Assembly (NCBI RefSeq): GCF_003575965.1
Contig: NZ_QWJJ01000001.1
Span: 1 to 64,000 of the forward strand
Source of the DNA: Pseudooceanicola sediminis
Lineage (GTDB): Bacteria > Pseudomonadota > Alphaproteobacteria > Rhodobacterales > Rhodobacteraceae
Length of the DNA: 64,000 nucleotides
Direction of reading: 5' to 3'
Below the pieces are notes generated by a model, which was not told where the DNA came from, searched no databases, and worked only from the letters and a program-made list of their open reading frames with translations. Below, one piece after another: positions 1 to 58,084 of this stretch; position 1 is the first letter of the stretch, and every line of letters begins with the position of its first letter. A program made the translations under genes and the position numbers.

Positions 1-103
1 CGGATCGGCGCGGGAGGGGGCGGCGCGGTGCGGGGCGCGGGCTGAGCGGGGCCGCTTGGGCGGGCGCGGCGCGGGGGCGTCGGTATTGCGCGGGGATCGA
101 CCT

Positions 104-172
104 GTAAGTCGTTGATATCGCGAGATTCGAACGTCGGTATTTGAACGGTATCTGAGCTGTATCCGAACGGTG
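104..172 (+). repeat. Intergenic 11-bp-periodic repeat element, copy 1
   Basis: This sits between the left window edge and the adenine deaminase gene. From 135 the sequence reads as consecutive 11-mers CGGTATTTGAA, CGGTATCTGAG, CTGTATCCGAA, then CGGTG. It is preceded by a 31-base lead containing GATATC, TCGCGA and TTCGAAC. It aligns without gaps to 38079-38147 (about 60 of 69 positions identical), and its array part also matches 56665-56697. The patch is AT-richer than its surroundings. Bases 1-103 are very GC-rich and show only one further CGGTATT at 80-86 and no gene. Confidence 0.85.
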
Positions 173-183
173 AAAAATCTGCA

Positions 184-2076
184 TCACCAGACCACCGGAT
201 GCGTGGCCCCTGTGGCGACGTTCACCAGCCCTTCGGGGGCATGATCGGAGGGCGCGACAAGGCACCATTTCCAGGGCGAGCAGGTCAGCGTGGCCCATGC
301 GAGGCGTTCGGGAAAACCGGGTTGCCAGCGCGGGTTGAAGGAGGGTTCGTACAGCCAGTCGATCCCTTCGGCCGCCGTGAGCAGGGCCTGCATGTCGCGA
401 TCCAGCGCCTCGGCGGGACGCGCGCTCATCAAGCCGGCGATTTCCCAGCGGATCGTGGCCAGCACCCGACCGCCCGAGACCAGCGCCCAGCCGCCATCCA
501 TGTCCGCGACCGTGTTGGCGGCCAGCGCCATGGCATCGTCGGACGAGCCGCAGGCCCAGAGGTTGTGCTTGTCATGGGCCATCGAGCAGGCAATCGCGGT
601 GTCGGGGGTGCGCGGGCCACAGCCGAGCCAGAACATCTTCGACACCGCGCCTTGCCCCGAGAACCGGTCGATCACGGCAAACTTTGTGACGTTGCGGTCG
701 GCATCGCGTTGCACCGCCCCGTCCTGCACCGGCAGGTCCATCGTCAGGAAGTCATCGGCCCAGTGGAAGGGGCGCAGAAGCGCCGCCGTGACCGTCTGGC
801 GACCCGAGGGCGCGGCGATGCGGAAATCGCCGGGCACCAGCGCGCGCCCGACGTTGATGGTTTTCGTCGCCCAGTCGGGCCAGTCGATGCAGGGCACGTC
901 GATCAGGTAGTCGGTGCCGGTGGCGACGTGGCGGCCATCGGCCCAGACCTGATGAATGGAAAAGCTGTCGAGATCGTCGAGCAGCACGATGTCGGCGTAG
1001 CGACCGGGCGCGATCAGGCCGACCCATTGTTCCAGCCGCATGTGCCGCGCCGGGTTGATCGTGGCGCATTGCACGGCGATTTCGGGGGCAAGACCGGCGG
1101 CAATGGCGGTGCGCACGTTGTGATCGGTCGCGCCGGTTTTCAGCGTGTCGCTGGCAGAGCGGTCATCGGTGGCGAAGGCGACGCGGGACCAGTCGCGCAG
1201 GCCAAGATCCAGCAGGCCGCGCACCATTTCGGAAAGCGAGTGGATGCGCAGCTCGATGAACAGCCCGGCGGCGAGCTTGTCCATCGCCTCTTCTGCCGTC
1301 CACATCTCATGATCGGAGGAGATTCCGGCGGCGGAAAAGGCGTTGATCGTGGGCAGGTCGGTCAGGCCAGCGGCGTGCCCCTCGACCACGGCGCGGCGTT
1401 CCAGCGTGGCGCGGATCATGCCCCAGAGGCGTGTGTGCGAGGGGTTTTCGGGGTCAGAGACGCCGGGCCAGTCCATCACCTCGTCCAGGCCGGCGACCAT
1501 GCGCGAGGCGTCGAGGAAATCGCGCTGTGCGTCATAACCGAGCCAGCCGCCGCCATGTTCATAGGCGGTGGGGGGGACGGCGGAACCGGGCAGCGGAAAG
1601 ATTTTCAGCGGCGAGCCACGGCGGCGGGCCTCAAGCCAGAAATCGAGGGTGCGGTCGGCGTTGACGTTGGAAAATTCGTGGCTGGCCTCGCAGGTCCAGG
1701 TGTTGCCCCGGGGGATGACGAGGGCGGCCTCATGCTCGGGTGTCAGGTGCGAGGATTCGATGTGCTTGTGCACCTCGCCCAGGCCGGGAACGGCCGAAAG
1801 GTCCGGCAGGTCGACGCGGGTTGTGGCGGTGCCGGGCCAGCTGCCTGCGGGGCCGGTGTAGGCGACGCGCTTGCCTGCAATGACGATTTCGCGGTTGTCG
1901 CGCCAGAGGCCGGTGCCGGTGTCGAGCAACCGCCCGACGCGCAGAACGGTGTCGGCGGGGGCGCGGCCAAGGGCAACCTGCACGAGGTGCTGGCGGATCG
2001 CGACTTCGGTTTCCGGGTTCAGGTCGACGTCGGCGTCAAGGTCGGCATCAACATCGGGAAAGGTCTGGTCTGTCAT
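184..2076 (-). CDS. Adenine deaminase-like amidohydrolase
   Basis: The 630-residue protein belongs to the adenine deaminase branch of the amidohydrolase superfamily, which converts adenine to hypoxanthine and ammonia in purine salvage. The metal-binding motif is seen as EVHKHIESS (His103 and His105); the family usual is DGHVHIESS. Further family blocks are GHAAGL, AAGISSDHE and ATDDRSASDTL. The C-terminal half carries the family's second domain (AVIDRFSG, AHDKHN). The ATG at 2076 is preferred because the upstream frame has no family similarity and is arginine/proline-rich. The N-terminus is acidic (DADLDADVD). The deviations around the first metal motif mean the substrate may not be adenine itself. 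It lies 104 bases downstream of the SURF1 gene on the same strand. Confidence 0.85.
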   Translation of the reverse strand: MTDQTFPDVDADLDADVDLNPETEVAIRQHLVQVALGRAPADTVLRVGRLLDTGTGLWRDNREIVIAGKRVAYTGPAGSWPGTATTRVDLPDLSAVPGLGEVHKHIESSHLTPEHEAALVIPRGNTWTCEASHEFSNVNADRTLDFWLEARRRGSPLKIFPLPGSAVPPTAYEHGGGWLGYDAQRDFLDASRMVAGLDEVMDWPGVSDPENPSHTRLWGMIRATLERRAVVEGHAAGLTDLPTINAFSAAGISSDHEMWTAEEAMDKLAAGLFIELRIHSLSEMVRGLLDLGLRDWSRVAFATDDRSASDTLKTGATDHNVRTAIAAGLAPEIAVQCATINPARHMRLEQWVGLIAPGRYADIVLLDDLDSFSIHQVWADGRHVATGTDYLIDVPCIDWPDWATKTINVGRALVPGDFRIAAPSGRQTVTAALLRPFHWADDFLTMDLPVQDGAVQRDADRNVTKFAVIDRFSGQGAVSKMFWLGCGPRTPDTAIACSMAHDKHNLWACGSSDDAMALAANTVADMDGGWALVSGGRVLATIRWEIAGLMSARPAEALDRDMQALLTAAEGIDWLYEPSFNPRWQPGFPERLAWATLTCSPWKWCLVAPSDHAPEGLVNVATGATHPVVW

Positions 2077-38012: not shown

Positions 38013-38078
38013 GCATACCAGACACGCCCGGCGGGGCGGTTTCGCGGGGCGGTATCGGTATTTTCCGTCAGGGGAGGC

Positions 38079-38147
38079 GTAAGTCCTTGATATCGCGAAA
38101 TTCGAACGTCGGTATCTGGGCGGTATCCGAGCGGTATGTGAACGGTG
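38079..38147 (+). repeat. Intergenic 11-bp-periodic repeat element, copy 2
   Basis: This lies in the 352-base gap between purS and purQ, after the purS terminator. The array from 38110 reads CGGTATCTGGG, CGGTATCCGAG, CGGTATGTGAA, CGGTG. The lead from 38079 is GTAAGTCCTTGATATCGCGA, then AATTCGAACGT. It is colinear with copy 1 over all 69 bases. The surrounding gap holds no gene; the purQ promoter should be nearby. Confidence 0.85.
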
Positions 38148-56547: not shown

Positions 56548-57076
56548 GAAAGGTCCTCTTTGTTGAAAGGGGTTATGGGCATAGCGGGGCGATGGTTCAA
56601 GTGGTGGTGAAACGACCAGGGCGGCGGGCGCGAAAATGCCGGCAGATCGCATCGGTTTCAACGTCGGTATCTGAACGGTATCTGAGCGGTGCCGGAGACG
56701 GTCAAGGCGATGGGAGGAGGGCGGCGCGGGCTTGGCGTGAGGCGATGAGGAGGCGGGCACAATGCGGGCGTTTGCACCTGGTCATGGCTGCGCGCGGGGG
56801 CGTTTGGTTCCGGATCTTGTCGGCTGGCGGAAAAGTGCACCGCCCGGCCTTGCCCGACGGGCGGGGCAGGTTGGTTGCCCGGGGACCGGAGCCTTTGCAA
56901 GGCGGCATCGGCAGGTTGATCATGGGCGCGGGATCGCGGCCATGATCGGGGTCGGAGAAGACCCCCGACCCCGTAGCAGATCGGAGGCTTGGCAGATCGG
57001 AGGGCCAGCCGAGCAGAGGCCCAGCCGATCAATGAAGCGGCGGGGCAGAGGCGTGACGGGGCGGAAGCGTCGCGCG
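56548..57076. other. Intergenic region between the CorC/HlyC and xerD genes
   Basis: A 529-base region. It holds copy 3 of the 11-bp-periodic repeat (56665-56697) and a GC hairpin, CGGGGTCGG / CCGACCCCG, at about 56947-56972 without a T tract. No gene is supported. Confidence 0.5.
56665..56697 (+). repeat. 11-bp-periodic repeat element, copy 3
   Basis: Reads CGGTATCTGAA, CGGTATCTGAG, CGGTGCCGGAG, with ACGT before it as in copies 1 and 2 (CAACGT versus GAACGT). The lead is less similar (AGATCGCATCGGTTTCAACGT) and the fourth unit is degenerate. It is an eroded member of the family. Confidence 0.75.
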
Positions 57077-58084
57077 TCAGCCGGGTTTGCGGTTCAGGGG
57101 ATGGTGATCCTCGACCAGATCGCGCAGGCGCTCCTCGACCACGTGGGTATAGATTTCGGTGGTGGCGAGGTCTGCGTGCCCCAGCAGCGTCTGGATGGCC
57201 CGCAGGTCGGCGCCGTTTTCCAGCAGATGCGTGGCAAAGGCATGGCGCAGGCGGTGCGGCGTGACCTTGTCGGGTGAAACGCCAGCCGCGACGGCCATTT
57301 CCTTGATCAGCAGGTAGAAGCGGTGGCGCGTCAGGTGGCCATCGCGCGACCGGGACGGAAAGAGAAAGCGCGAGGCAGGCTTGCCCTTGGCCTTGTCCAG
57401 CGCCTCGGCGGCATCGCGGGCAGAGAGCCAGGCCTGCATCGCGTCCTTGGCATGATCGGAAAGGGGCACAAGGCGTTCCTTGTCGCCCTTGCCCTTGATC
57501 AGCAGCATGTCGGGCGCACCGCGCACGGCGGCCACCGGCAGGGTCACCAGTTCGCTGACGCGCATACCGGTGGCATAGAGCAGTTCCATCAGGCAGGTAT
57601 TGCGCAGCTGATCGCGCGATGACCGGCCCTGGCTGCGTGCGGCCGCGAGAAGGGCGTCGACCTCGGCCACGGACAGGGTCTTTGGCAGACTGCGGGCGCG
57701 ACCGGGGCCGCGGATCTGGATCGCGGGATTATCGGTGCGCCAGCCCTCGTCGAAGGCAAAGCGGTAGAGCTGGCGAATGGCCGACAGGCGCCGGGCCCGG
57801 GTCGCCTTGGAAAAGCCCTGTGCATCGCAGTGGATCAGGTAATTTTCGACATCGGTACGCGACAGCGTCTGCCAGTCCAGGCCGTGCCCGGTGATCCAGC
57901 CCTGCACATCCTTGAGGTCGCGCCCATAGGCCAGCAGGGTGTTGCGTGCGGCCCCGGCCTCGGCCGCCTGCGCTTCGAGGAACGCCGAAATCCAGCGGTG
58001 ATCCGGGGCACCGTCTGGGGCAGTGTCTGGGGCAATGTCTGTGGTACTGGTCGCGGCGGTCGCGTCGTTGGGGGGGCGGGCCAT
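57077..58084 (-). CDS. xerD: Tyrosine recombinase XerD
   Basis: XerD works with XerC to resolve chromosome dimers at dif. The 335-residue protein has the N-terminal SAM-like core-binding domain (FLEAQAAEAGAARNTLLAYGRDL) and the catalytic set: Arg in YATGMRVSELVTL, Lys in KGKGDKERLVPL, His-x-x-Arg in TPHRLRHAFATHLLENGAD, His in LLGHADLATT, and Tyr in TEIYTHV. The N-terminus has a Thr/Asp/Pro-rich lead of about 25 residues. ATG 58084 is preferred to the TTG at 58093, which overlaps the upstream gene's stop. It could be a paralogous Xer, but neighbours and length fit XerD. Confidence 0.93.
   Translation of the reverse strand: MARPPNDATAATSTTDIAPDTAPDGAPDHRWISAFLEAQAAEAGAARNTLLAYGRDLKDVQGWITGHGLDWQTLSRTDVENYLIHCDAQGFSKATRARRLSAIRQLYRFAFDEGWRTDNPAIQIRGPGRARSLPKTLSVAEVDALLAAARSQGRSSRDQLRNTCLMELLYATGMRVSELVTLPVAAVRGAPDMLLIKGKGDKERLVPLSDHAKDAMQAWLSARDAAEALDKAKGKPASRFLFPSRSRDGHLTRHRFYLLIKEMAVAAGVSPDKVTPHRLRHAFATHLLENGADLRAIQTLLGHADLATTEIYTHVVEERLRDLVEDHHPLNRKPG

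Follow-up and report, generated by a model that had tools for sequence, protein, structure and literature searches.

What is an intergenic stretch of 11-bp direct units, each close to one helical turn, doing in a bacterial chromosome, and is it more than a coincidence within one contig? The original prediction, made for the 64,000 nucleotides analyzed here (hereafter the window), described three dispersed copies of an element built from units spelled CGGTATCYGAR, and offered a protein-binding array, a REP-like repeat or a small-RNA family as possible explanations. All three copies are present at the positions given for them, and the phenomenon is larger than was claimed. The two-unit CGGTATCYGAR pattern (at most three mismatches) has 185 matches (75 and 110 on the two strands) in the genome that contains the window (G000, Pseudooceanicola, 4.44 Mb in 54 contigs) and 0 in the reversed control; the outcome named as refuting, that no further copies would be found, did not occur.

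Arrays in the window and across the genome

The features of the three copies are listed below, where YAANNNNTTGATW is the reverse complement of the IHF consensus.

79..86, plus strand: upstream box GTCGGTAT of copy 1, 54 bp ahead of an identical octamer within the array
105..117, plus strand: IHF-like site TAAGTCGTTGATA of copy 1, an exact fit to YAANNNNTTGATW, inside the A/T-phased lead (by eye)
135..172, plus strand: four-unit 11-bp array of copy 1, with third core CTGTAT and a CGGTG end
38054..38061, plus strand: upstream box ATCGGTAT of copy 2, one mismatch from GTCGGTAT (by eye)
38080..38092, plus strand: IHF-like site TAAGTCCTTGATA of copy 2, an exact fit (by eye)
38110..38147, plus strand: four-unit array of copy 2, in the purS/purQ gap
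56665..56691, plus strand: copy 3, a shortened variant with two full units and CGGTG

The 11-mers of copy 1 stand back to back at 135/146/157 with a terminal CGGTG at 168; those of copy 2 follow one another at 38110/38121/38132 and close with CGGTG at 38143; and copy 3 has 11-mers at 56665/56676, then CGGTG at 56687. Consecutive 11-mers are thus found in every copy, as predicted, but arrays hold four units rather than three, copy 3 being shortened. The gapless alignment of copies 1 and 2 over 69 bases was recovered by blastn (87% identity across 38079-38147). The conserved lead described for these two copies also stands, recast as a block with phased A/T runs and a fit to the IHF consensus; copy 3 has no such lead. 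With at most one mismatch, CGGTATCYGAR matches the window 11 times, compared with a shuffled mean of 2.97 and a largest shuffled value of 8 (none of 100 shuffles attains the observed count). Copies 1-3 account for eight of these matches, and the remaining three single 11-mers are at chance level.

The statement that all copies lie in gene gaps holds for copies 2 and 3, each of which has called genes on either side. As the contig starts at base 1, copy 1 is bounded by a called gene on the right alone. The array of copy 1 ends 11 bp from the end of a convergent adenine deaminase-type gene (184-2076, minus strand). That of copy 2 follows a terminator-like hairpin (by eye) and has an orthologous array in P. 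spongiae (L376), and copy 3 is flanked by a CNNM/CorC-type gene and a tyrosine-integrase-type gene. This integrase (57077-58084), with an N-terminal SAM-like domain, is XerC/D-like in make-up. Elsewhere in G000, an 80-bp tandem repeat of 3.2 copies at the end of contig C27 (L373, 4126-4378) reaches the contig end and is built on a three-unit variant similar to copy 3.

Genome-wide, four cores at 11-bp steps (at most one mismatch) gave 111 matches in G000 and 0 in the control. A sequence-only model built from 36 copies found, at E<=10, at least 152 matches in G000 and at least 128 in P. spongiae (G315), where 150 candidates were scored per genome out of 1783 and 1481 first-look candidates; among the matches listed, E-values run from 3e-21 to about 1e-8. 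Anatomy was studied in 96 G000 and 62 P. spongiae stretches fetched around matches. G000 (including the window) has 103 CGGTA chains at 11 bp and P. spongiae has 69, 172 in total; alternative spacings of 7-10 and 12-17 occur in the fetched stretches in 0 or 1 array each. As these stretches were selected for matches, the unbiased controls on spacing are the genome counts of 185 versus 0 and 111 versus 0.

Four units are present in 148 of the 172 arrays of the two species, three in 18 and five in 6, and the final unit is CGGTG in 67/83 (G000) and 63/65 (P. spongiae) four-unit arrays. The element, about 75 bp long, comprises an A/T-phased lead followed by units at exactly 11 bp. In brief, the G000 consensus is YAA-N4-TTGAWAT, an AATT run and then ACGTCGGTATCTGAACGGTATCNGAGCGGTATCTGAACGGTG; in P. 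spongiae little more than the A/T runs is retained in the lead, and ATGTCGGTATCNCGTCGGTATCTGAACGGTATCTGAACGGTGCGATTTT is the array consensus. The copies had been described as AT-richer than the genome, in agreement with a G+C content of 55% in G000 four-unit arrays versus 64.1% in the window. Linkage between array columns is strongest within one spacer, with weaker linkages between units. Identical array pairs exceed column shuffles in P. spongiae (21 versus a mean of 1.6, maximum 10) and in G000 (4 versus 0.1, maximum 3).

The small-RNA alternative was not sustained: none of nine predicted pairs in the consensus fold of 36 copies (0/9) had a compensatory change, eight strand folds of four copies had z values from -1.14 to +1.79, and Rfam at gathering score returned only two tRNAs from the window. 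On these three results an RNA element was rejected. An origin from mobile plasmids or phages was also rejected, since neither consensus had a match in plasmids or phages with the low-complexity filter on. In a viral collection, the general spelling described below gave a three-core match in one contig and the G000 spelling in none; this single array (L379, 7480-7520) lies in a 30-kb contig that is possibly host DNA. Among the papers listed on dispersed, extragenic or 11-bp repeats in Rhodobacteraceae and on the letters of the unit, with subscription journals thinly covered, none looked like this array family.

Lead, flanking boxes and gene context

Leads were analyzed for 99 of the 103 G000 arrays, four being dropped for want of flank. 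A fit to YAANNNNTTGATW with at most one mismatch occurs at exactly -30 in 50/99 of them, and a match at any position of the lead in 55/99, where shuffled leads give 1.2 on average and at most 5. The match is also found in 4/6 arrays of genus G242, at -31. Among 33 further CGGTA-type arrays (one congener and other genera), five leads fit the consensus (shuffled mean 0.57, maximum 4), the four of G242 included. The count in P. spongiae, 3/69, is inside the shuffled range (mean 0.5, maximum 4), and it is 0/43 for arrays of the ATGGC type introduced below. The sequence speaks for an IHF step in no lineage other than G000 and G242, and IHF bending may be lineage-specific, because the match is weak in P. 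spongiae and absent from the ATGGC-type genera. Upstream A/T runs stay in helical phase in both unit types: enrichment of A/T near -20, -10 and -1, weaker near -30, is present in both the 33 CGGTA-type and the 43 ATGGC-type arrays.

Farther upstream, the GTCGGTAT box (at most one mismatch, within -75..-30) accompanies 45/99 G000 arrays versus 2/99 in the downstream control, with 25 boxes starting at -56 and 9 at -46; in P. spongiae it accompanies 2/69. Some arrays form a GTTAAC subclass, defined by a site at about -32 or +60, either of which suffices (17/82 four-unit arrays in G000, 14/65 in P. spongiae), and a GTTAAC half-site lies on both sides of 17/99 and 13/69 arrays, respectively. GTTAAC or a near variant flanks the array, about 92 bp apart, in both species (L118, L122, L136, L138, L143, L155, L306, L324 and others). 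A CtrA site is TTAA-N7-TTAA, and this identity was rejected for the subclass, whose GTTAAC sites are about 92 bp apart, not 7.

Arrays are mostly intergenic, with a preference for convergent gene pairs. By a home-made codon-usage caller, 93 of the 103 fetched G000 arrays lie between called genes (33 convergent, 49 codirectional, 11 divergent), 4 overlap a called gene and 6 are at stretch edges; the proposed check that copies are always intergenic was therefore passed by most arrays and not by all. The P. spongiae arrays comprise 24 convergent, 32 codirectional, 9 divergent and 4 gene-overlapping cases, with 0 at edges. For gaps of at least 60 bp, arrays occupy 33/78 convergent, 48/169 codirectional and 11/66 divergent gaps in G000, and 23/45, 33/117 and 9/47 in P. 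spongiae, fractions that are inflated by the selection of the fetched stretches for matches, under which one-sided losses are also under-sampled. In L114/L160 and L135/L158, at seemingly matching places in the two species, the overlap of array and called gene is either a gene miscall or a genuine coding overlap. In L240 and L246 (G347, G176), a three-core match apparently lies within a RecQ-like coding region (by eye).

The strand of the array relative to neighboring genes varies. Intrinsic-terminator-like hairpins are more frequent on the sense side (28/59 in G000, 20/34 in P. spongiae) than on the antisense side (10/55 and 16/41); at gene ends of array-free gaps the counts are 40/150 and 31/78. 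The idea of the array as a terminator substitute was set aside, the hairpin counts being mixed. The 69 fetched P. spongiae arrays are spaced in a random-like manner (gap CV 1.017 vs 0.98; 1331/2000 simulations at or below). A KOPS-like chromosome-polarity signal was rejected as well, no strand bias being visible by eye in 200-kb bins in P. spongiae, although a weak bias could escape a test of 69 arrays in a genome with 122 four-core matches.

Distribution and changing spelling at shared loci

The search of related genomes, which had been suggested at the outset, extended the family to four further genomes of the genus: the four-core pattern has 111 matches in G000, 122 in P. spongiae, 94 in G299, 54 in G312 and 24 in G298. 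The other 18/23 genus genomes, two of them less than 80% complete, have zero matches, and the function is therefore dispensable. Among 295 family genomes, none other than G000 has more than two matches to the G000 spelling, which is the control level in most. The exact 27-base form occurs among GTDB contigs in P. spongiae only (19 stretches), own-genome records being possibly omitted. A looser general unit, CGTCGGTATYR, is present in 35/394 family genomes, with at least five matches in 20 (own included). Beyond the family, 7/380 sampled class genomes have one match each and none has more.

A second type, with ATGGC-N5-T units at 11 bp, surfaced through the reversed control and is found with 5 to 74 matches in eight genomes of eight genera; a few further genomes have up to 4 control matches. 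This second 11-bp family, with unit GTATGGCNNGC, was seen in G145, G067, G285, G135, G105, G074, G175 and G130 (L400-L419, L269-L298), and in G145 an inverted TGCCA or GCCA often comes right after the final unit (by eye). These ATGGC-unit arrays of eight other genera have a similar architecture. Four units are present in 19/21 G145 arrays and in 26/43 of all ATGGC-type arrays, and in 19/33 of the further CGGTA-type arrays; the non-four arrays of both types have 3, 5 or 6. Among the 394 family genomes, no genome with at least five CGGTA-type matches has a match of the ATGGC type.

A motif-free scan of 53 loci (23 pntB, 23 purQ, 7 epimerase) gave period 11 four times (in P. spongiae, G312 and twice in G299), and the other periods from 7 to 15 together gave one hit. 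The scan is insensitive, having missed the G000 arrays at all three loci and the P. spongiae arrays at purQ and epimerase, and it leaves room for other motifs in congeners without CGGTA arrays.

The comparison of G000 with P. spongiae was based on 249 reciprocal best hits between stretches of both species (median identity 91%). Among 175 orthologous gaps, arrays are present in both species in 37, in neither in 137, and in P. spongiae only in one by script. This exception (L142) is probably shared, its G000 array lying just beyond the script tolerance, beneath a doubtful gene call. Six of the 37 shared pairs were dropped from letter comparisons, one side being without four units, and 31 were kept.

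The units have been re-spelled genome-wide while the loci stay shared between G000 and P. spongiae. In the 31 pairs, agreement is 94-100% for the CGGT of every unit and 34-50% for the flanks; at position 10 the two species always differ (G000 has A or G, P. spongiae has T), and -3 agrees in 16%. Column identity within the array is 0.780 for orthologues versus 0.778 for shuffled pairs (z 0.5), a comparison to be read with caution, as transitions make up the differences at many variable positions of the array, which might saturate faster than the flanks. Ancestry is retained outside the array, with z 7.6 for the lead, 6.2 for the upstream flank and 6.4 for the downstream flank. The contrast persists in the 23 pairs in which both arrays fall outside the GTTAAC subclass (z -0.1 for the array, 4.5 for the lead and 5.5 and 4.2 for the flanks); for the five pairs in which both fall inside it, too few to judge, flank and array are both non-significant.

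At the pntB locus, G299, P. spongiae and G000 each have an array after a terminator, in three different spellings, and G314, G296, G308 and G312 show no array within the 330 bases displayed. Spacers in the listed G299 arrays are mostly of the CGT or GGT type throughout. In P. spongiae the first spacer is still of the CGT/GGT type and the last two are of the GAA/GGG type, and in G000 all three are of a GAA-like type.

Candidate explanations and their meaning

We give about an even chance to the reading, drawn from the DNA letters, that the element is a DNA-level putative protein-binding site read on one face over about seven helical turns. The four 11-bp units place the same bases on one helix face, and the A/T runs of the lead are in about the same phase. 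One-face binding is proposed because of this exact helical phase, the nearly fixed unit number, the phased lead and the shared loci; the sites also prefer gene 3' ends and are kept at common loci despite species divergence. The idea that the array presents the same helix face to a protein is thereby supported indirectly (11-bp spacing, near-fixed number, phased A/T runs, shared loci), with binding as such putative. Against this reading, the unit number is looser outside G000 and P. spongiae, P. spongiae gives only a weak IHF match (3/69) and the ATGGC type none (0/43), the upstream box is nearly missing from P. spongiae (2/69), a homo-oligomer has no obvious need for differing unit spellings in one array, and 18/23 congeners are without a match.

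The most serious rival, unlikely in our judgment, is a REPIN- or MITE-like repeat population that spread anciently through an unspecified transposase or other copying machinery, was homogenized as dispersed sites were copied onto one another, and has no role for the host today. Such a population would agree with the high copy number, the mostly intergenic and patchy occurrence (20/394 family genomes with at least five matches), the homogenization of arrays within a genome (0.780 vs 0.778) whereas flanks keep ancestry, and the excess of identical arrays over column shuffles in P. spongiae and G000. It is at odds with three observations: no gap with an array in one species only has been established (one-sided cases being under-sampled), target duplication or common flanks are not evident by eye among the displayed copies, and the strongest linkages lie within one spacer, unlike whole-array copying. 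Chance or low-complexity similarity has practically no probability left: short repeats can arise randomly in one window, where three single 11-mers are at chance level, but the counts of 185 vs 0 and 111 vs 0 and the shared orthologous positions refute it.

An RNA-level transcript-end signal on the C-rich strand, for example for Rho loading or processing, appears improbable. Arrays are close to gene ends, and in G000 the genes whose transcripts would include the C-rich strand have fewer terminator-like hairpins (10/55) than array-free ends (40/150) or genes on the other side (28/59), but in P. spongiae there is no difference between the antisense side and the array-free control (16/41 vs 31/78). 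The array strand relative to genes is not constant, fold and covariation are absent, and a strict phase of 11 bp, together with A/T runs in helical register, resembles a DNA feature. OmpR/PhoB-type response regulators bind hexamer-N5-hexamer direct repeats at 11 bp, and the CGGTAT-N5-CGGTAT spacing, measured at 11 bp, agrees with such an operator. The shared hexamer spacing is not matched by a shared promoter location: divergent gaps, the site of promoters, are the least used (11/66 in G000, 9/47 in P. spongiae), and there are four units instead of two and about 100 sites per genome. Promoter operators of this type are therefore a very improbable explanation.

Among known repeats, REPs are palindromes in opposite orientation and REPINs are built from palindromic REPs; the arrays consist of direct 11-bp units of nearly fixed number and phase. 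A likeness to REPINs, the repeats associated with RAYT transposases, lies in their description as sequence populations persisting in a genome for long times (PMC8049555). The arrays differ from these palindrome-based repeats in having loci common to two species and array bases that change together. PMC2817692 describes an interaction of IHF with the inter-REP sequence of BIME-1, gyrase binding by BIME-2 and atypical BIMEs and, for REPs, both an interaction with DNA polymerase I and a facilitating effect on Rho-dependent termination. Like E. coli BIME-1, the family has many extragenic copies with an IHF-like segment beside repeated motifs, array binding being putative; unlike BIME-1, the arrays are without a conserved stem-loop, and the IHF match occurs in some lineages only. 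By analogy, the array may work somewhat like BIME-1, the nearest system by possible action, yet it is not classed as REP/BIME because the palindrome test fails. The REP-like alternative thus keeps its high copy number and intergenic placement and loses its anatomy, the arrays being direct repeats without a conserved stem-loop palindrome.

Plasmid parC offers another likeness in its direct repeats of about one helical turn (11 bp); the parC repeats are described as bound by ParR, with the DNA wrapping around the protein, and R1 ParR as requiring at least two 11-bp repeats (PMC9426499). However, the usual place of parC is on a plasmid, upstream of parM, whereas the arrays occupy about 100 sites per genome, not a single site at a parMR operon, and none of the five genes flanking the window copies is a par gene.

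If the element is a one-face protein-binding site, IHF or another bender would fold the lead, and in G000 this bending would draw the upstream GTCGGTAT box towards the array. A putative sequence-specific protein would occupy the array, with one domain or subunit per unit, and the complex would form an architectural or insulating node between adjacent, often convergent, transcription units. The shared loci with different spelling suggest that a putative protein reads the signal, and genome-wide re-spelling would follow shifts in its reading of each unit.

A more specific proposal is possible, and we hold it tentatively: the arrays may be a family-wide chromosomal signal for a modular protein with one module per turn, in which modules switch specificity singly and about 100 sites are re-spelled unit by unit, or else a dedicated copying system may do the re-spelling. 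The steps observed are the spacer types that shift from G299 through P. spongiae to G000 and the wholly different unit of other genera. Either driver of the concerted change, a co-evolving reader or copying on 40-bp targets, would be an unusual mechanism. The best-known dispersed intergenic repeats of bacteria are palindromic (REP, REPIN), and this family is built of direct units in helical phase; it is distinctive in its nearly fixed unit number, shared loci and concerted genome-wide change. The pair of G000 and P. spongiae, with matched sites in differing spellings, is suited to seeking the cognate factor by swaps.
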